Positions 32,254 to 40,536 of a DNA stretch of 64,000 bases are shown piece after piece. The notes under the pieces were generated by a model that ran no database searches, was not told where the DNA came from, and was given only the letters and a program-made list of their open reading frames with translations. How positions within the stretch are numbered: the first letter of the stretch is position 1; each line of letters begins with the position of its first letter. The DNA is from Phormidium tanganyikae FI6-MK23. GTDB taxonomy: Bacteria > Cyanobacteriota > Cyanobacteriia > Leptolyngbyales > Leptolyngbyaceae. A program made the position numbers and the translations under genes. Where the stretch lies: the NCBI GenBank assembly GCA_019359175.1, contig JAHHHU010000022.1, positions 1 through 64,000 of the forward strand. Direction: 5' to 3'.

Positions 32254-32907
32254 CTAAAACACTAATTTGCGACTATAAAAAGCCTCTGCAAATTTGCTTG
32301 GTGAGTTCGATTCAATTCCTCGCAACCGCAAGATTGCCTGGAAAGTATCTTCAGTAAACCATTGCCGCTTTTTCTGTGATTCAAACACCTCTATCAGTGT
32401 TTGAATCTTGCGCTGACAGACTGCTTCGCTGAGCGGCACATAAAAGTTTGGGTTTCCGATATCGCCATCGTATTTCGGGATTTCGTACTCTAAAACAAGA
32501 TGGTTTCGATAGCTATTCCAGGTCAAATCAGAAATGACCCGATGATCTTGGTGAGCATCGTTTTTGTAGTGCGTCAGAATCAGATCCGGTGAAAATGCTT
32601 GGCTGAGTTCATTGAAGTACTCTTTGATTTCGGTTCCCACAAACGGAAAGAAGCTGTTGCGAAAGTTCTTAACAACAATGTTTTCCACTTTCGCACCTTC
32701 TAGAAATCGATTGGCGCTGTCGAATGCTTCCTTCGATCGAAGTTCACTAGAGCTAAACACAACCCAGTAAAACACAGCATTTGAATACTCTTCGATCAGT
32801 CGTAGAATCGTTCCACCACATCCGATCTCAATGTCATCACAATGAGCACCAAGGCACAGAATCCGGTATTCTGCATCTTTTCCTTGATCGAACATCAACT
32901 TCAGCAT
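32254..32907 (-). CDS. PIG-L family deacetylase (LmbE-like)
   Basis: A 217-residue zinc-dependent deacetylase-like protein. The metal motif appears as LGAHCDDIEIGCGGTI (A-H-x-D-D, with Cys in place of the usual Pro) and LTHYKNDAHQDHR. Family members remove N-acetyl groups from GlcNAc-type sugars. It is last in a seven-gene minus-strand cluster for an unusual sugar, suggesting it deacetylates a nucleotide sugar or glycan intermediate. ATG 32907 follows AAGGTG closely; GTG 32919 is an alternative. Confidence 0.85.
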   Translation of the reverse strand: MLKLMFDQGKDAEYRILCLGAHCDDIEIGCGGTILRLIEEYSNAVFYWVVFSSSELRSKEAFDSANRFLEGAKVENIVVKNFRNSFFPFVGTEIKEYFNELSQAFSPDLILTHYKNDAHQDHRVISDLTWNSYRNHLVLEYEIPKYDGDIGNPNFYVPLSEAVCQRKIQTLIEVFESQKKRQWFTEDTFQAILRLRGIESNSPSKFAEAFYSRKLVF

Positions 32908-32929
32908 TTTCACCTTCACGGGTTAGTCA

Positions 32930-33718
32930 CTACACAGCTTTGCGGGTTTTCCAGACTTCCCAAGGAGGAGTGCCTTGGGAGTACAAGTCATCCAGGTTTT
33001 GCTTGTCTCTAAACGTATCCATGCAAGTCCAGAAACCGTCATAGTTATAGGCAAGTAGTTCTTCTTTCTCGATCAAGCGTTGGAACGGTTCAAGCACCAA
33101 TTCTTCACCAGACTGCATATGTCTGAAAATCTCAGTTTTGAGCGCAAAGAAACCGCCATTGATACGGAGGTCAGCATTGTTAACGTGCTCAATGCTCTTG
33201 ACCAAGCCGTCTTCTTGCGAAGTGACAACGTGAAATGTCTGCGTGGGCTTCACAGATAAGAAGCTTGCAATTTTGTCGTGGCGCATGAAGTGATTAATGA
33301 AGTCATCGAGCGGCAAGTTGCTCAGACCATCGCTGTAGTTTGCTAGGAACATTTCCTCGCCTTCTAGGTACTTCTCAACAGCTTTCAAGCGCTGTCCAAT
33401 GTTAGAGTACAGCCCGGTGTCAACGAAGGTAATTCTCCAATCGTGGATGTCACTGCCGATCATTTGAACTTGCTTTCCACCTGCGGACAGTACAAAGTCA
33501 TTCGAGAGACATTCGTTGTAGTTCAAAAAGTACTCTTTGATGTAGTCCGCTTTGTAACCCAGACACAAAATAAAGTCTTTGTGCCCGTAGTGAGCGTAGT
33601 ACTTCATCAAGTGCCACAGAATCGGACGATACCCGATGTTGACCATTGGTTTTGGAATCTTTTCCGAATAGTCTCTTAATCGAGTGCCTAGACCGCCACA
33701 AAACAAAACAACTTTCAT
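32930..33718 (-). CDS. rfbF: Sugar nucleotidyltransferase, RfbF-like (glucose-1-phosphate cytidylyltransferase)
   Basis: A 262-residue nucleotidyltransferase. The N-terminus VVLFCGGLGTRLRDYSEKIPKPM is the nucleotide-binding loop with the catalytic Lys; GHKDFILCLGYKADYIKEYF, VDTGLYSNIGQRL, MFLANYSDGLSNLPL and GFWTCMDTFRDKQNLDDL follow RfbF. This enzyme makes CDP-glucose, the precursor of CDP-linked deoxy and branched sugars. ATG 33718 follows GAGAGGGA by about 9 bases. A classical CDP-glucose 4,6-dehydratase (RfbG) is not obvious in the cluster. Confidence 0.87.
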   Translation of the reverse strand: MKVVLFCGGLGTRLRDYSEKIPKPMVNIGYRPILWHLMKYYAHYGHKDFILCLGYKADYIKEYFLNYNECLSNDFVLSAGGKQVQMIGSDIHDWRITFVDTGLYSNIGQRLKAVEKYLEGEEMFLANYSDGLSNLPLDDFINHFMRHDKIASFLSVKPTQTFHVVTSQEDGLVKSIEHVNNADLRINGGFFALKTEIFRHMQSGEELVLEPFQRLIEKEELLAYNYDGFWTCMDTFRDKQNLDDLYSQGTPPWEVWKTRKAV

Positions 33719-33794
33719 GCAGATTATCCCTCTCAATGGATTGCTCTTAGAATTCCCTCAGTTTCCTGAGTAACATTCGCTTTCTATCTTGGCT

Positions 33795-35114
33795 TCACAA
33801 ATCGATCGCCTCTTTCAACAAATCAGTTTCAATCAACGCATCTGAAACCCGCTTAATTGCATCAAACTCAAAGCCCGAGCGCTCTGCAATGTCGAGCAAT
33901 GAATGCTGTCCATCCGACAGGTTCAATGTCCATAACAGTGCAAGCTCATTCAATCCGGTTCCAGAAGAGCCTCCCACCGATCGATAAAGTCCTCGTCGCC
34001 CCAATTGAGGCTCGCACTTCGGATTCTGGTTGATATAAATCTTGTTGTGTTCCAACACTGACAGCACATTCAAGCATTTCAAAAATGAATCCGTGAGATA
34101 TTCAGGTCGAATGAAATCGAGATTATCAGCCGAGGTGTGATATTCAGGAAACTTGCTATTTGGTGATCGCATAAAGCACCCAACAGGTAAGTCAAACCCT
34201 GGCGAACAAAACTGCCGCTCATCATAGCCATATGGAAAGAAATCAATGATGTTATGGTCCTGTTCAGACTGTTTCAGAACGTGGGCAACCGCATGATCGA
34301 TCTCTGCATCTCCTTGCCGACTCTTCTTGTAGGTTGACTGACCTGAATCGCCTAAGCAACTCAACACTAACCCATGTTTGATTCGATGAACTTGGTCTTC
34401 ATTTTGACTGAGCCAAGTAATTGATCCGATCGTCGCTGGAATAAAGATGAAGCGGTAAGAATAGCGGTGTGCAATCTCGCTCAAGGACTTGGCAAGGTGA
34501 ACTGCGATCGCAATTCCCGATAAATTGTCATTTGCCAAGGATGGATGGCAGGCATGACAAGAAATCAGCACTTCATCTTCAACTTCTCCAGGTAAGTAAT
34601 ACTCACCGTAAGTTAAATTTCCAGCTTCTAGTGTCGAATCAATGCAAACCTCATACTGATTCTCTGGTAGTTCAAGCAACTGCTTGTGAGTGAGGCAGAA
34701 TCCCCAAGTATCTTTGTAGTAAGACGTGCGATAGGGAATCCAATCGGGACGATCTGGCAAGCTGAACAGATGCGGCTTGAGTTCTTCCAGAGACATCGTT
34801 TGATGCACCGGAATGCTGTAGTTTACAACGTGCAAATTGCATTGCTGGAAATCAATCACGCGATCTCCTTGTGAATTTTTCACATAGGCATCCCGAATGT
34901 TCCATTCTCGCGGCACTGTCCAATCAAATACCTGCGTTCCGGTTGGAACTTCAAATCGTTTCAATGGAATAAAGCGTTCGATCTGGCGCAGTGTTTCCCG
35001 AAATCCATCGCCCGTAATGCTGCGGCAAATCGGATACAATTCGGCAGCAAAACGATGGAGATCTTTACCGATCGCTTGGGGGTCGAGAACTGTTTTGAGA
35101 TCAGTGATGTTCAT
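33795..35114 (-). CDS. DUF4910-like aminopeptidase-fold protein with C-terminal winged helix
   Basis: A 439-residue protein. The N-terminus AAELYPICRSITGDGFRETL and later SCHACHPSLANDNLSGIAIA (His and Asp-Asn metal-site pattern), GYDERQFCSPGFDLPVG and YHTSADNLDFI are the features of DUF4910, a zinc-aminopeptidase-like fold often found in polysaccharide clusters. The last 70 residues look like a winged helix (LLDIAERSGFEFDAIKRVSDAL). The biochemical role is not known to me; amide or ester cleavage on a sugar intermediate is a guess. It ends close upstream of rfbF. Confidence 0.75.
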   Translation of the reverse strand: MNITDLKTVLDPQAIGKDLHRFAAELYPICRSITGDGFRETLRQIERFIPLKRFEVPTGTQVFDWTVPREWNIRDAYVKNSQGDRVIDFQQCNLHVVNYSIPVHQTMSLEELKPHLFSLPDRPDWIPYRTSYYKDTWGFCLTHKQLLELPENQYEVCIDSTLEAGNLTYGEYYLPGEVEDEVLISCHACHPSLANDNLSGIAIAVHLAKSLSEIAHRYSYRFIFIPATIGSITWLSQNEDQVHRIKHGLVLSCLGDSGQSTYKKSRQGDAEIDHAVAHVLKQSEQDHNIIDFFPYGYDERQFCSPGFDLPVGCFMRSPNSKFPEYHTSADNLDFIRPEYLTDSFLKCLNVLSVLEHNKIYINQNPKCEPQLGRRGLYRSVGGSSGTGLNELALLWTLNLSDGQHSLLDIAERSGFEFDAIKRVSDALIETDLLKEAIDL

Positions 35115-35119
35115 TGTCT

Positions 35120-36055
35120 CTAGTAGGAAGACAGAAGAGCAACGGGCGGCCGAAACACTAAGTCACCTTCAGGGGGTGCAGTGTCTTCGTAGAGGGCAAT
35201 CACTTCTTCAGGCAATCGAGCGAGATCGGTTGCCCGCATGAAGTCTCTCAATGCTGTGCCAGTCGAAACATTATCAACGTTCGGCGCACCTTTTCTGGCA
35301 ATCAAATCGTCCAGATGCACCGTTCTAAAGTCGATACTATAGCGTGTGCGACCAGAGGTGTTTGGGACAGTTGAGTGCATCTGTGCGCCAGCGAACAACA
35401 TCACGCCGCCTACTTCACAAACAAGCCGAATTTGAGGATCGATATCGATAGGTTCTTCTGAGCGAGGCTGAAAGCGCGTGTCTTTCTTAACGTGTTGAGC
35501 GGCGTTTTTGCGCCCTGTGTTGTTGTATTCGTAGTAGTTAAAGCCGCTCGAACTATTCTTCACAGGTTGGCTCCAGTATTTCGGATGGAATGCCATCGAG
35601 CTTTCTGATTCAAATTCATATACTGGAAGCCACCAATTCACCTGGCTCGGAGGCGCACAGTACCAGGTATCTCGATGCGGATGGAACGGATAACCGACTC
35701 CTGCTGTGAGGTAAGCGTGACTTGTGATGATCTTTAATCGAGGGACATCGAAATAAGTTTTTTCTAAGTCGTAGCTGTATTCTTCCAGGATTTCTTGAAT
35801 GAGTTGCTTTGATTTTGGATGATGAATAAAGCTGGGTTTGAGTGGAGCCGCGATCGCAACAAATTCCTCAACGCTAAACTTATGTTGCGCCATGGTTGGA
35901 TCAAGCGGAGCAAACGCCGCTTCAATCATTTCGCGAGCGTGTTCACACAGCGCCAACAGACTAGGACGGGGCGAAAATAAGAAAAGCTGCCCGTCGTAAA
36001 TTCGTTCGCGTCTCACTTCATCACTAACTGGAGAATCAAAGTAAACAGTGTGCAT
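35120..36055 (-). CDS. Fe(II)/2-oxoglutarate dioxygenase-like protein (PhyH-type)
   Basis: A 311-residue protein. GYPFHPHRDTWYCAPPSQVNW holds an H-x-D pair and AGAQMHSTVPNTSGRTRYSIDF holds a distal His followed by an Arg-Ser pattern, together matching the facial triad and 2-oxoglutarate-binding Arg of PhyH-like dioxygenases. The substrate is unknown. Only 5 bases separate it from the DUF4910 gene, so the two are almost certainly co-transcribed. A role in oxidising a sugar or acyl group is inferred from position. Confidence 0.68.
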   Translation of the reverse strand: MHTVYFDSPVSDEVRRERIYDGQLFLFSPRPSLLALCEHAREMIEAAFAPLDPTMAQHKFSVEEFVAIAAPLKPSFIHHPKSKQLIQEILEEYSYDLEKTYFDVPRLKIITSHAYLTAGVGYPFHPHRDTWYCAPPSQVNWWLPVYEFESESSMAFHPKYWSQPVKNSSSGFNYYEYNNTGRKNAAQHVKKDTRFQPRSEEPIDIDPQIRLVCEVGGVMLFAGAQMHSTVPNTSGRTRYSIDFRTVHLDDLIARKGAPNVDNVSTGTALRDFMRATDLARLPEEVIALYEDTAPPEGDLVFRPPVALLSSY

Positions 36056-36121
36056 AGAGCTTCCTTACAAAATTGAAATGAACAATCATCGATCGAGTAA
36101 ATTGCTCGATCGATGACTTGC

Positions 36122-37459
36122 TTAAAGTCCAATGCCTTCGTAGCGCTGAATCGAGTCTTTGTCTAACATCCGACGACCATCCACAAAGACAGGCTGTGGA
36201 TCAAGTTGAGCAATCATCTCAGGCACGGCTCGAAACTCATCCCAACGAGTCACAAGCACGATCGCATCTACCTCGTCGAGCGCGGCTTCTAAGCGATCGC
36301 AGAGTTCCACCTCTTCTGAATTGAGGAGCTTTGCCGCTTCTGAGTTCGCCACCGGATCGTAGGCTTTGAGCATTGCATTTTGCGCTTTGAGTGCCTTGAT
36401 CAATGGAATCGCGGGTGTTTCCCGCATATCGTTCGTGTTAGGTCTAAACGATAATCCCAAGATGGCAATCTTCACGCCATCAAGCGACGGAAAATGCTTG
36501 TTTAGCCTAGCAATGACTTGCTGAGGTTGGGATTGATTGACTTGAATCACTGCGTCTAACAAGGGCATCGCACTCTGATATTTCTCGCCATGAGCAATCA
36601 AAGCCTTCACATCTTTGGGTAGGCAGCTTCCTCCAAAGCCACAACCAGCGGCAAGAAAGCTTGTAATTGGTGGAACAATACGATCGCCATTTGGCAATAC
36701 AGTAGTCAAATAGCGGCTGTTGTGAACCCCTTTCATCACTTCTACAATGTCGGTGTTGCCGATCGCAGAACAAAGATTGCCAACTTCATTCGAGAAAGAG
36801 ATCAACAAGGCTAACAATGAATTTGAAGTATATTTGATCATCTCAGCAGTGGAATTGTTCGTTCTTAAACGATCGACTCCATCAAATCCACTGTAAAGAG
36901 CATCTAATTGGTCAATGCTCTGATCGTCAATGCCGCCTAAAACAATGCGATCGGGATACATAAAATCGTCGATCGCTTCGCCTTCAGTGAGGAATTCTGG
37001 GTTCATTCCTACACCAAAGTCAACTCCTGCTTTTTTGCCCGAAGCAGCTTCGAGAATTGGCAAAACAACTTGATCCGTTGTTCCAGGAACAACAGTACTT
37101 TTCACTACAACCAAATGGTAGGTTGACTTCTCTTTGAGCGCCTCGCCGATCTGCTGTGCAACTTGCTTCACATAAGTCAGATCAACTTCTTTCCCATCAA
37201 ACGGAGTTCCGACTGCAATCAAAGAAAGCTCAGTATCAAGAATTGCTTGGCGGAAATCCGTTGTCGCTTTGAGACGAGAATGAATGTTGCGCTCCAAGAG
37301 TTCGTTCAATCCAGGCTCGTAGAACGGAGAAATGCCTTGGTTGATCTTATCGACTTTCGATTGATCGACATCAACACAGAGAACTTCATGCCCTTTCTCA
37401 GCAAAGCAAACTCCTGAAACTAAGCCGACATAACCTGTTCCAATGATAGAAACCTGCAT
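36122..37459 (-). CDS. ugd: UDP-glucose 6-dehydrogenase
   Basis: A 445-residue UDP-glucose/GDP-mannose dehydrogenase that oxidises UDP-glucose to UDP-glucuronate with 2 NAD. The N-terminal Rossmann loop is VSIIGTGYVGLVSGVCFAE; the catalytic Cys lies in GFGGSCLPKDVKAL; the C-terminal domain has LGLSFRPNTNDMRETPAIPL and LVTRWDEFR. Its ATG overlaps the stop of the SDR gene upstream by one base (TAATG), indicating coupled translation. Its product, UDP-glucuronate, is the substrate of UXS-type enzymes. Confidence 0.95.
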   Translation of the reverse strand: MQVSIIGTGYVGLVSGVCFAEKGHEVLCVDVDQSKVDKINQGISPFYEPGLNELLERNIHSRLKATTDFRQAILDTELSLIAVGTPFDGKEVDLTYVKQVAQQIGEALKEKSTYHLVVVKSTVVPGTTDQVVLPILEAASGKKAGVDFGVGMNPEFLTEGEAIDDFMYPDRIVLGGIDDQSIDQLDALYSGFDGVDRLRTNNSTAEMIKYTSNSLLALLISFSNEVGNLCSAIGNTDIVEVMKGVHNSRYLTTVLPNGDRIVPPITSFLAAGCGFGGSCLPKDVKALIAHGEKYQSAMPLLDAVIQVNQSQPQQVIARLNKHFPSLDGVKIAILGLSFRPNTNDMRETPAIPLIKALKAQNAMLKAYDPVANSEAAKLLNSEEVELCDRLEAALDEVDAIVLVTRWDEFRAVPEMIAQLDPQPVFVDGRRMLDKDSIQRYEGIGL

Positions 37460-38592
37460 TATGCGTCCTCCGCTTCTTGGTTGCCTTCATACCAAATCAG
37501 AGATCGACGAAGCCCTTCTTCAATAAAAATCGTCGGATTATAGCCCAAATGATTGCGAGCTTTTTCGATCACCGGACAGCGACGATTCGGATTATCGATC
37601 AAATAGTCCTTGTCCTCACTGACTTTACGAATGACCTGCCCTTCATATCCAAACAGTTCTTTTGAGATTGCGACCACTCTTTCTGCCAGTTCTGCAACCG
37701 AGATTTCAGGTGTCTCAATCCCAATGTTGTAAGCTTCACCAGGATGCCCTTTGACTAAAACCTTGTAGTAGCCTGTGATCGAATCCGCTGAATAGCAGAA
37801 TGTCCGCTTAGGTGAACCATCAGACAGCATGGTAATGTCTCTGCCACTGAACACATCGCGGGCAAAATCGGGAAGCAAACGTCGATCGGTAATCTTTAGC
37901 CCAGGCCCGTAGTTGTTAAAAGGACGGGCAGACTTAATCGGTAAGCCATACTGTTGAGCAAAGTTCACACACAGCGTTTCACCATAGCGCTTCGCTTCGT
38001 CATAGCAGGCGCGAGGCCCCGTACAAGAAACATTGCCTCGATAATCTTCAGGCGTGGGAATGTTCTCTGGTGTGGGATCGCCATAGATTTCGCTGCTAGA
38101 GAAGAACAAAAATCCACCAACTTCTTTCCCTTGATCTCTCTGGTTTTTGAAGTATTCCAGTAGATTGCGGAGTCCGTTGACATTAGCATCCATTGTGCCG
38201 ATCGGATCTCTGCGGTAGAAGGTAGGAGAAGCGATCGAAGCTGCATGAATAATGTACTGAAAGTCACCCATATCAGACGGCAACGGCTGTGTCATATCAT
38301 GCTTCAGCAGCGTTAGCGTGGGATCGTCTTTCAGGTCGGTCAACCAAGTTGGTACACCTCGCGAATAGTTATCGTAAACCGTGAGGCGGATTTGCTGCGC
38401 TGAGTCCCGTTTTTGGTTCCAGTGCAAAATCGCTTGTACAAAGTAATAGCCCAGAAAACCTGCGCCGCCTGTAATCAAGAGGTTTTTGCCTGCCATTGTG
38501 TCAAACTCTTCCGTGAGATTGGCACAAATATAGTCCAGGTCTTCAGCAATAATATCTTTTGCGCGGAGTTGGACTTTGGTTTGATTCGTCAT
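37459..38592 (-). CDS. UDP-glucuronate decarboxylase-like SDR (UXS type)
   Basis: A 377-residue extended SDR. The cofactor loop is LLITGGAGFLGYYFVQA and the active site YDEAKRYGE (YxxxK). TGPRACYDEAKRYGETLC is the signature of UDP-xylose synthase/UDP-glucuronate decarboxylase. Later SARPFNNYGPG and RTFCYSADSITGYYKVL fit the family. It sits directly before ugd with a one-base overlap, so the pair can make UDP-xylose or its 4-keto intermediate from UDP-glucose. ATG 38592 follows GAAGAGAG; an ATG at 38640 would add 16 residues. A 4,6-dehydratase role is an alternative. Confidence 0.82.
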   Translation of the reverse strand: MTNQTKVQLRAKDIIAEDLDYICANLTEEFDTMAGKNLLITGGAGFLGYYFVQAILHWNQKRDSAQQIRLTVYDNYSRGVPTWLTDLKDDPTLTLLKHDMTQPLPSDMGDFQYIIHAASIASPTFYRRDPIGTMDANVNGLRNLLEYFKNQRDQGKEVGGFLFFSSSEIYGDPTPENIPTPEDYRGNVSCTGPRACYDEAKRYGETLCVNFAQQYGLPIKSARPFNNYGPGLKITDRRLLPDFARDVFSGRDITMLSDGSPKRTFCYSADSITGYYKVLVKGHPGEAYNIGIETPEISVAELAERVVAISKELFGYEGQVIRKVSEDKDYLIDNPNRRCPVIEKARNHLGYNPTIFIEEGLRRSLIWYEGNQEAEDA

Positions 38593-38706
38593 TAAACTCT
38601 CTTCGTTGAGGCTCATGCCTACACTACTCATTGCACTCATAGATTGATTTCCACAACGTCATGATCTAAGCTCATCATCAAGAACACAAGACTGGCAGCA
38701 CACGCA

Positions 38707-39939
38707 CTAAGCGTAGATTTTAACTTCAGGGATAGGAACCACGAACTGGCCGCCCCACTCACGAATGTAGGAAACTTGCTCCATAATTTCGTCTTTGACG
38801 TTCCAGGGAAGAATCAACAGATAGTCTGGTTTTGTTTCTCGGATTTTGTCCGGAGAATAGATTGGAATGTGAGTTCCAGGGGTAAACTTGTTCTGCTTGT
38901 AAGGATTGCGATCGACAGTGTAATCGAGAAAATCTGTCCGAATCCCACAGTAGTTCAGCAAGGTATTTCCCTTCCCAGGCGCACCGTAACCCGCAACCGT
39001 TTTTCCCTTTTGCTTTGCTGTGATCAAAAACTCCAGCAGTTTTCGCTTGGTTTCTTTCACCTGCTCGGTAAAGTTGGCATAGGTTTCAAGCTTGTCAAAA
39101 CCAGCGATTTTTTCGCGTTCTAAAAGTTCAGTCACACGATCGCTCACAGGTTTCGATATATCTTCGGTGTGACGCGCATAGATTCGCAGAGAACCCCCGT
39201 GAATCGGAATCTCTTGCACATCGAACAAGGTCAACCCATGAAATGCAAAGATTCTCTCAACAGCGATAAAAGACAGGTAAGAGAAATGCTCATGGTAAAT
39301 GGTGTCAAACTGATTCTCTTCTATCAGGCGCATCAGATGGGGAAACTCCATCGTGATCACACCATCGGGTTTCAGCATGATTTTCATGCCGCCTACAAAA
39401 TCATTGATGTCTGGGACGTGCGCGAGAACATTGTTTCCGAGCAGCAAATCCGCTTTACCGTCAGCTGCAAGCTCAGTTGCCGTCTGTACACCAAAGAATT
39501 TGTTAACAACCGGAATCCCTTTATCTTTCGCAACCTGAGAGACATTTACCGCAGGTTCAACGCCTAGCACTGGAATGCCTTTCTTCACAAAGTACTGCAA
39601 CAGATAACCATCGTTGCTAGCAATTTCCACCACTTTGCTTTGAGATCCGAAGCCGAACCGCTCCACCATCAGATCGCTGTAATCGCTCGCGTTTTTCAGC
39701 AAAGCATCCACATAAGACGAAAAATAGGCGTACTCTGTGAAAATGTCTTGGGGGCTAACGAACTCTTGAAGCTGAACCAGAAAGCAATTATCGCAAACAT
39801 AAGTATGGAGTGGATAGAACGGCTCCATCTCGTTTAATTGCTCTGGAGTAATATGGGTTTGGCACAGTGGCGACATTCCCAAATCGACAAACGTATGATG
39901 CAGCGGTGAGCTACAAAACCGACAATTTGAACCACTCAT
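38707..39939 (-). CDS. Sugar C-methyltransferase (zinc-binding, SAM-dependent)
   Basis: A 410-residue NDP-hexose C-methyltransferase type. The N-terminus has four zinc cysteines (CRFCSS and CDNC). The SAM domain follows (VVEIASNDGYLLQYF, VLGVEPAVNVSQVA), then the C-terminal block GYGAPGKGNTLLNYCGI. Relatives such as TylC3 and NovU add a methyl branch to 4-keto deoxysugars. It is the first gene of the minus-strand cluster. Start ATG 39939 follows GAGGTG by about 9 bases; an ATG at 39951 is too close to it. Confidence 0.88.
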   Translation of the reverse strand: MSGSNCRFCSSPLHHTFVDLGMSPLCQTHITPEQLNEMEPFYPLHTYVCDNCFLVQLQEFVSPQDIFTEYAYFSSYVDALLKNASDYSDLMVERFGFGSQSKVVEIASNDGYLLQYFVKKGIPVLGVEPAVNVSQVAKDKGIPVVNKFFGVQTATELAADGKADLLLGNNVLAHVPDINDFVGGMKIMLKPDGVITMEFPHLMRLIEENQFDTIYHEHFSYLSFIAVERIFAFHGLTLFDVQEIPIHGGSLRIYARHTEDISKPVSDRVTELLEREKIAGFDKLETYANFTEQVKETKRKLLEFLITAKQKGKTVAGYGAPGKGNTLLNYCGIRTDFLDYTVDRNPYKQNKFTPGTHIPIYSPDKIRETKPDYLLILPWNVKDEIMEQVSYIREWGGQFVVPIPEVKIYA

Positions 39940-40536
39940 AAATTCATGCACCTCACGGCATCAGGACGCTAAAACTACAGCACAGCGAGCCTTGAATCAC
40001 GTATCTCGTCATTTGACAAGAACGATCGAAGACTAATGGACTGAAGCAGACGTTGCCCCTCATTGACATCGAATTGACATCGAATCTTGTCTGCAAGTTG
40101 GCTGAATCAAGTCTCTACCATCTCTGCATAATTTTCCAGTATTTCTACGTAATCTTTATCGAAATCCCAGCATCTTTACTTAAACAAAATAGAGATACTG
40201 AGAATCACTATTTAGGGCTTGAAAATACTGCCATTTCTGGGAATCAAGCCTGTGGGTGTGAAATTCGGTCGTTTAACTCGGTAGATTGAGTAAATAACTC
40301 ACTCATTTTGGCGATTGCCTAAGAACAAGTGATGTGAGTTCTATTTACGGGTGTTGATGTTTACCAAAGTTTCGCTACAGTAGATGGAAATCGATCGTGA
40401 ATTCCATGTTCACGGAATGATCGAAATTGAGATTGAAGCAAGATTAAACCGAAATCGCGCTTGTGCATCAGGGTGTTCTGAATGTGACTTTTGCGTCTAA
40501 GAGATTTCTGTAAACCGTTACGATCGCTTTGAGACT
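39940..40536. other. Intergenic region upstream of the sugar cluster and the VanZ gene
   Basis: About 600 bases between divergent genes. A 78-codon frame at 40053-40289 looks like chance. A dyad lies at 40391-40424: TCGATC/GATCGA enclosing ATTCC/GGAAT with a 4-base bulge; an alternative is GTGAA/TTCAC. No exact NtcA site and no clear promoter boxes seen. Confidence 0.35.

Follow-up and report, generated by a model that had tools for sequence, protein, structure and literature searches.

The window, a stretch of 64,000 nucleotides from the cyanobacterium Phormidium tanganyikae FI6-MK23, contains seven genes that we read as an operon-like cassette for an activated C-methyl-branched pentose, linked to cytidine diphosphate (CDP) and used in a surface glycan assembled elsewhere. 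We put this reading forward tentatively, with confidence a little below even. Compared with related loci, the cassette appears to be modular: a C-methyltransferase and a DUF4910 protein are constant, an RfbF-like nucleotidyltransferase and a PIG-L deacetylase are usual, and the source of the 4-keto sugar is exchangeable. Contig C18, 78.8 kb long, begins with the window and belongs to a genome of 5.74 Mb in 77 contigs. The seven co-directional open reading frames (ORFs) stand head to tail at 32254-39951 on the minus strand, and none has an internal stop. In transcription order they encode a nucleotide-sugar C-methyltransferase, a short-chain dehydrogenase/reductase (SDR) resembling the UDP-glucuronate decarboxylase UXS (UDP, uridine diphosphate), a nucleotide-sugar dehydrogenase of the Ugd type, a PhyH-type oxygenase, the DUF4910 protein, the RfbF-like protein, and the PIG-L protein. 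Successive gaps of 66, -1, 66, 5, 76, and 10 nt bear out an earlier note, made from the sequence alone, that had described seven tightly spaced genes on one strand. Pfam names all seven (Methyltransf_13/14, Epimerase, UDPG_MGDP_dh, PhyH, DUF4910 with DUF2172 and HTH_47, NTP_transferase, and PIG-L), and Pfam and NCBIfam agree with the names that the note had given, except for the RfbF-like protein at the curated RfbF cut-off.

We assembled 109 loci for comparison. Scanning genome contigs gave 80, searching the phylum gave 13 regions in 12 genomes, plasmids gave 3, and the family gave 12, with the window itself as the last; three were dropped as duplicates, leaving 106. Sampling was anchored on DUF4910 and is biased toward relatives of the query, and loci cut by contig ends were retained, so some absences may be false. 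A DUF4910 gene was classed as close when it scored at least 650 bits on a model built here (96 loci) and otherwise as distant (10 loci), a division that, like the other score limits, was chosen after the scores had been seen. The C-methyltransferase lies within 8 kb of DUF4910 in 83 of the 96 close loci and in none of the 10 distant ones. The window's type of RfbF-like gene, which we call RfbF2, is present in 65 of the 96 close loci and canonical-type RfbF in 9, and the two never occur together (0/96). Of the 65 loci with RfbF2, 63 have PIG-L no more than 8 kb from DUF4910, compared with 1 of the 9 with canonical-type RfbF. None of the distant loci has the C-methyltransferase, either type of RfbF, or PIG-L, and some carry NeuB-type genes.

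The exchangeable part supplies the 4-keto sugar. It consists of Ugd and the UXS-like protein, here called UXSx, in 14 loci; in DUF4910-linked loci the two always go together (14/14). Six other DUF4910 loci (L021, L022, L110, L154, L155, and L157) carry a CDP-glucose 4,6-dehydratase, called by NCBIfam in two (492 and 487 bits) and only by a hidden Markov model built here in four, and in five of the six RfbF2 is the sole RfbF. The family of the window includes L154, L155, and L157, three of its four fetched loci without UXSx. Each has the dehydratase directly upstream of the methyltransferase, after which DUF4910, RfbF2, and PIG-L come in the window's order; two of the three have an additional SDR. 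In the genome of P. tanganyikae itself, the best match to the dehydratase scored 77 bits against a cut-off of 278.45. An RmlC-like epimerase and a different SDR are found in most of the remaining loci. The idea that SDRc4 fills the place of the absent 4,6-dehydratase in other loci was rejected, given that none of five members tested reached a cut-off and that the triad reads S-C-S in three aligned.

The C-methyltransferase (38707..39939, minus strand, from an ATG; a GTG start at 39951 is possible) matches Methyltransf_14 at 239.8 bits and also has Methyltransf_13, an S-adenosylmethionine domain, and the YHEH motif, which is catalytic in sugar C-methyltransferases. Residues Y219, E221, H222, C10, C13, C53, and C56 are invariant in 15 aligned sequences, and the genome has no second good match (others at most 23.3 bits). 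The nearest solved structure is 4rv9, listed as a D-mycarose 3-C-methyltransferase, at 294.7 bits; other solved members reach at most 244.7 bits and the TcaB9 entries at most 228. We take 4rv9 to be MtmC. Known members of the MtmC/TcaB9-type sugar 3-C-methyltransferases, to whose family the window protein belongs, act on antibiotic deoxyhexoses, whereas the acceptor predicted for the window is a pentose. MtmC has been described as a bifunctional ketoreductase/methyltransferase (PMC5103430). A similar dual activity, predicted here from homology, could account for there being no separate ketoreductase in the window cassette.

The DUF4910 protein (33795..35114, minus strand), the only one in its genome, has an M28-like fold with one zinc site and the domains DUF4910, DUF2172, and HTH_47; it scores 394.4 bits on the Pfam model (cut-off, 26.6) and 545.7 bits to its solved relative, 3k9t. 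H190, D196, and H326 match the zinc ligands of 3k9t and are invariant in 13 sequences. The catalytic Asp and Glu of M28 peptidases are absent: the protein has Ser192 and Pro226 at the positions of Ser191 and Pro225 in 3k9t, which are reported to replace them (PMC4000134). Das et al. (2014) proposed that DUF4910 proteins function in modified surface carbohydrates and reported that genes for epimerases, nucleotidyltransferases, glycosyltransferases, and sugar methylases are linked to theirs, also in cyanobacteria (PMC4000134). Their protein, CA_C2195/3k9t, shares family and zinc-site residues with ours, but the locus that they tabulate holds nonulosonate genes and, unlike the window, lacks Ugd, UXS, RfbF, and PIG-L; an exchange of sugar sources is not described in sections 6 and 10 of that paper (PMC4000134).

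UXSx (37459..38640, minus strand, Epimerase family) is a divergent paralogue of UDP-glucuronate decarboxylase, and its gene overlaps by 1 nt that of Ugd, a nucleotide-sugar 6-dehydrogenase (36122..37459, minus strand; 424.7 bits on TIGR03026). Human UXS1 is the best solved relative of UXSx, at 159.3 bits. A second, canonical pair of UXS and Ugd is encoded on contig C7 of the same genome, and because that UXS scores far higher to human UXS1 (472.9 bits), we conclude that the cluster has a divergent pair of its own. The window and C7 Ugd proteins are 41-45% identical, in two pieces. The S, E, Y, K, R, and N of the UXS active site (TSE triad, YxxxK, Arg, and Asn) are kept in all 14 DUF4910-linked UXSx, and in a tree the four canonical UXS rows split from the UXSx rows with a branch support of 100/100. 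UXSx was rejected as a CDP-glucose 4,6-dehydratase (33 bits against a cut-off of 278, with the UXS residues kept) and as an apiose synthase (at most 37.5 bits, compared with 159.3 to UXS). Among the 25 of 1277 records listed in a plasmid search with UXSx, identity was at most 37%.

A precedent for keto release is EvdS6 of everninomicin biosynthesis, a UXS-like decarboxylase that releases UDP-4-keto-xylose as a proposed precursor of a branched sugar (PMC10338323). The triad Thr of EvdS6 is needed for the reductive half of the reaction, and its loss leaves almost only the 4-keto product (PMC10338323). EvdS6 (8shh) is a distant match to UXSx, at 65.4 bits, and it differs from our proposal in that its branch is proposed to come from an acetyl unit added by a thiamine pyrophosphate enzyme, not from C-methylation (PMC10338323). 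In UXSx the triad Thr is replaced by Ser in all 14 DUF4910-linked proteins and in five from another family, whereas canonical UXS has Thr in 4/4 aligned and 30/30 cyanobacterial sequences (the genome's own UXS is in both sets). This exchange is only a hint of keto release, because Ser retains the hydroxyl.

The neighborhoods of UXSx bear on the nucleotide carrier. A search of 386 genomes of the phylum gave 11 matches to UXSx at 1e-60 or below, the genome's own included, and ten regions were fetched without a DUF4910 anchor. Seven have an adjoining Ugd and no DUF4910. The three weakest matches (L225-L227, 37-42% identity) lack Ugd and were left out of the seven; in L225 and L227 canonical-type RfbF stands further off, beside a CDP-glucose 4,6-dehydratase, and L226 has no RfbF. 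In six of the seven, canonical-type RfbF lies within about 2.5 kb, in several cases contiguously as RfbF-UXSx-Ugd, and the four tested all pass the curated cut-off with 332-394 bits. Twenty control regions around canonical UXS, two of them cut by contig ends, contain Ugd in 18 cases and RfbF in none. When the DUF4910-linked pairs are counted as well, an RfbF-family gene lies no further than 8 kb from 19 of 21 UXSx-Ugd pairs, although only the 6/7 part of this count is independent of DUF4910. One locus, L058, joins everything in the order RfbF-UXSx-Ugd-methyltransferase-DUF4910-PhyH, with an RfbF of 381.9 bits. L218 and L220 have a DegT aminotransferase beside the RfbF/UXSx/Ugd trio, which is what release of a 4-keto sugar would predict.

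The earlier note had seen a mixture of UDP and CDP chemistry here, which is not supported as it was written. Because UXSx with Ugd stands near canonical-type RfbF in 6/7 loci that have no DUF4910 and canonical UXS is near RfbF in 0/20, a single CDP-linked route is the simpler reading. This suggests a series from CDP-glucose through CDP-glucuronate and a CDP-4-keto-pentose to C-methylation, in which the nucleotide, the position of the methyl group, and the final sugar are predicted. As a separate observation, L224 (7602-8742, plus strand) has a CDP-glucose 4,6-dehydratase broken into two ORFs between canonical-type RfbF and UXSx-Ugd, as though the former sugar source were degenerating next to the one that took its place.

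Several findings weigh against our reading. RfbF2 (32930..33718, minus strand; NTP_transferase family; probably starting at ATG 33718 rather than at TTG 33736, where the ORF opens) has no second good match in its genome. On TIGR02623, the RfbF equivalog, it scores 229.7 bits, below the curated cut-off of 300.25, and a second RfbF2, from L020, scores 217.5. The canonical-type proteins of L051, L091, L058, and L070 pass with 382-450 bits, and the RfbF-type gene of L072, at 296.7, is just under the cut-off. The Glu-Lys pair that we take to be the sugar-site signature of RfbF is found in 0/52 RfbF2 and 9/9 canonical-type sequences. All 52 RfbF2 keep the Asp residues, the Arg of GGxGxR, and the Lys of PKP; we take the Asp pair to be metal binding and presume that the Arg and Lys have functional roles too. 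RfbF2 is therefore no ordinary RfbF but a separate subfamily, and CDP-glucose is doubtful as its product because the signature is absent and the cut-off is missed. The CDP-glucose chemistry that the earlier note had read from this gene is likewise not established by the gene alone. Moreover, RfbF2 is not tied to the UXSx route, because 52 of the 69 loci without UXSx carry it, and only five of these have a CDP-glucose 4,6-dehydratase.

Other counterpoints lie in the UXSx loci. Of the seven without DUF4910, one family accounts for five, whose Ugd proteins score 356-379 bits on a Ugd model built here, below the canonical proteins (393-418) and those of L218 and L219 (640-661), so that only L218 and L219 have the window's kind of Ugd. 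These same two loci keep the triad Thr in UXSx; Ser is thus not universal, and the exchange is weakened as proof of keto release. No RfbF was seen in L223, a UXSx locus without DUF4910, or within the 21 kb of L074, which has UXSx, Ugd, methyltransferase, and DUF4910. The window Ugd has its best scores with UDP-glucose dehydrogenase models. A further contrast, which speaks for a pentose, concerns the RmlC-like epimerase: it occurs in none of the 14 DUF4910-linked UXSx loci, compared with 51 of the 69 other loci that have the methyltransferase. Because a pentose has no C5 stereocenter, a 5-epimerase would have nothing to act on there. However, the Fisher p of 1.8e-7 for this contrast overstates it, because the trees imply only 3 (methyltransferase) or 4 (DUF4910) independent changes. 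In L219, which has UXSx and no DUF4910, an RmlC-like gene is contiguous with RfbF, UXSx, and Ugd. With so few changes and this locus, the contrast is weak evidence, and the loss of RmlC is weakened as proof of a pentose also by the dehydratase loci, only 3 of 6 of which have RmlC. Finally, the window cassette has no aminotransferase that would account for a substrate of PIG-L.

In an alternative, the route is UDP linked, with Ugd and UXSx acting on UDP-glucose and UDP-glucuronate to give a UDP-C-methyl-pentose and with RfbF2 and PIG-L forming a separate small pathway to a further building block for that glycan. The canonical pair in the genome is paralogous to Ugd and UXSx, and EvdS6 sets a UDP-glucuronate precedent for release of a 4-keto-pentose (PMC10338323). 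RfbF2 and PIG-L also behave as a detachable pair, being together in 63/65 loci and both missing from three UXSx loci, and L074 does without any RfbF. Yet in two of the three UXSx loci that lack RfbF2, canonical-type RfbF takes its place (contiguous in L058, on the other strand in L072), and the UXSx loci without DUF4910 differ from canonical UXS in their proximity to canonical-type RfbF as described above (6/7 and 0/20). We regard the UDP-linked version as possible but rather doubtful.

The PIG-L protein (32254..32919, minus strand; PF02585, 51.1 bits, cut-off 28.2) scores 40.3 bits on the BshB1 equivalog and does not reach the 182.5 needed. Its attachment to RfbF2 in 63/65 loci, compared with 1/9 for canonical-type RfbF, and the loss of the Glu-Lys signature would suit a pathway to an N-acylated or amino sugar, in which RfbF2 takes an N-acetylated sugar phosphate, PIG-L deacetylates it, DUF4910 transfers or cleaves an acyl group, and the methyl branch is an extra. 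Class-III aminotransferase genes are near 14 of the 96 close DUF4910 loci. Cj1295 of Campylobacter jejuni is a relative by description, and we take it to belong to PF16254. Hitchen et al. (2010) tied this protein genetically to a change in sugar acylation: the di-O-methylglyceroyl group that modifies pseudaminic acid at its 5-amino position depends on Cj1295 (PMC3068675). It acts in the pseudaminic acid pathway, however, unlike the route proposed for the window (PMC3068675). We consider such a product unlikely, since the window cassette has no aminotransferase, PIG-L and RfbF2 are missing from about one-third of the close DUF4910 loci, and DUF4910 is without the catalytic residues of M28 peptidases (PMC4000134).

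The PhyH-type Fe(II)/2-oxoglutarate oxygenase (35120..36055, minus strand; Pfam PhyH, 25.9 bits, cut-off 22) is an optional part. H127, D129, H227, and R238 are invariant in 18 sequences, and the HxD...H metal triad is intact. The fold model is closest to PtlH (Z 13.9; root mean square deviation, 3.7; 223 residues aligned), but the predicted local distance difference test score is below 50 at 118-131, which includes the HxD; the fold search gave the general family only and no substrate. Between the Ugd and PhyH genes, where PhyH comes and goes among close relatives, lies a 14-pair hairpin (36084-36118, minus strand) that may be a terminator or a scar, although in a hairpin scan such sites were no commoner than in shuffled sequence.

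A DUF4910 relative is present in 7 of the 8 genomes of the genus and 13 of the 42 of the family, the window's genome being counted in both. The order of the genes is unchanged in all six congeners fetched, although PhyH is absent from two; G386, which belongs to a different genus, likewise has the other six genes and no PhyH. On the methyltransferase side, VanZ and/or hydrolase genes are neighbors in 6/6 congeners, and Ppx flanks the PIG-L side in 3/6, with none in the 3-5 kb covered of the other three. In G408, looked at for an empty site, the contig ends about 0.8 kb behind Ppx. All seven genes occur in 8 of the 106 loci (the window, L034, L036, L049, L057, L146, L150, and L151), and L035, L148, and L153 have the full set except that PhyH was not found. 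The earlier note had made co-occurrence elsewhere a test of its proposal, and the set indeed recurs within the genus, in a second genus of this family (L036), and in L049 and L057, two bins that bear the name Fibrobacteres. The PhyH protein of L036 may be truncated, because its match spans 241 of 311 residues. L049 and L057 share 52-72% identity with the window over the seven genes, place PhyH elsewhere in the order, and have flippase and glycosyltransferase genes beside the cassette; in these two and in the plasmids L017 and L174, cassette genes occur with glycosyltransferase, flippase, or export genes.

Relatives of the cassette are spread over many bacterial phyla. Gordonia terrae carries on a plasmid (L172:7754-11608, plus strand) the methyltransferase, an RfbF-like gene, PIG-L, and an SDR with no annotated DUF4910, and three rhizobial plasmids (L171, L173, and L174) have the module with RmlC and an SDR, L171 and L174 with polysaccharide export and autokinase genes close by. 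In Rhizonema and Scytonema (L041-L043) DUF4910 stands beside a short SDR, and the C-methyltransferase was not found in the sequence covered, which for L043 is a contig of only 4.7 kb. In Brasilonema (L037-L040) a conserved gene lies downstream of DUF4910, and its L038 copy encodes a PurK-like ATP-grasp protein.

This distribution bears on the view that the cassette merely supplies ordinary UDP-xylose beside unrelated neighbors, the operon being a historical assembly with no common product. Such an assembly would account for the variable presence of PhyH and for the window cassette having no glycosyltransferase gene beside it. We nevertheless consider it very improbable, since six genes keep their order in six congeners and G386, the genome already has a canonical pair of UXS and Ugd, and the methyltransferase and DUF4910 are associated across many phyla. 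The earlier note's idea of a modified, possibly branched nucleotide sugar for a glycan made elsewhere is supported: this is a nucleotide-sugar cassette, probably for a branched sugar, with no glycosyltransferases here.

Two further known systems resemble parts of the cassette. A model for virenose in Coxiella burnetii involves a C-methyl-branched surface-glycan sugar and a TylCIII-like methyltransferase with a suggested dual role as reductase, but virenose is a hexose linked to guanosine or thymidine diphosphate, and the passages concerned do not name DUF4910, PIG-L, or RfbF (PMC3539893). Bacterial UDP-apiose synthases make a branched pentose from UDP-glucuronate, with no C-methylation and no conserved operon in the account given (PMC5607165). 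The earlier note knew of no described pathway with exactly this set. In open-access papers, a scope that leaves out most subscription papers, we found nothing direct on the set or its chemistry, whereas the gene links of DUF4910 had already been described in general terms (PMC4000134). The cassette is thus made of known enzyme families in a combination that we did not find described in the open-access literature.

Taken together, the observations are the gene content, the domains, the kept catalytic residues, the exchange of 4-keto-sugar sources, and the link of UXSx to RfbF-family genes. From these we infer that CDP is the carrier, which substrates are used, where the methyl group goes, which sugar results, and what DUF4910, PIG-L, and PhyH do. 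In the CDP-linked route that we favor, RfbF2 would make a CDP-sugar, probably CDP-glucose, and Ugd would oxidize it at C6 to CDP-glucuronate. UXSx would then oxidize C4, decarboxylate, and release a CDP-4-keto-pentose. The C-methyltransferase would methylate the carbon adjacent to the ketone, probably C3, and, like MtmC, may also carry out the reduction at C4. DUF4910 would act on the branched intermediate, with PhyH and PIG-L as optional tailoring enzymes. More broadly, UXSx, Ugd, and the RfbF family may form a CDP-based branch parallel to the UDP one, whose 4-keto product replaces CDP-4-keto-6-deoxyglucose in the C-methyltransferase/DUF4910 module or feeds an aminotransferase elsewhere; we hold this to be plausible, though somewhat short of an even chance. 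To our knowledge no CDP-glucuronate route has been described, although no literature search was aimed at that point.

If true, a CDP-linked route to uronate and pentose would add a branch to nucleotide-sugar metabolism. DUF4910 has a solved structure and no known reaction, and the cassette supplies it with a tight partner, the C-methyltransferase, and a short list of candidate substrates. The exchange of sugar sources within one cyanobacterial family offers natural paired comparisons and makes an unstudied pathway testable.

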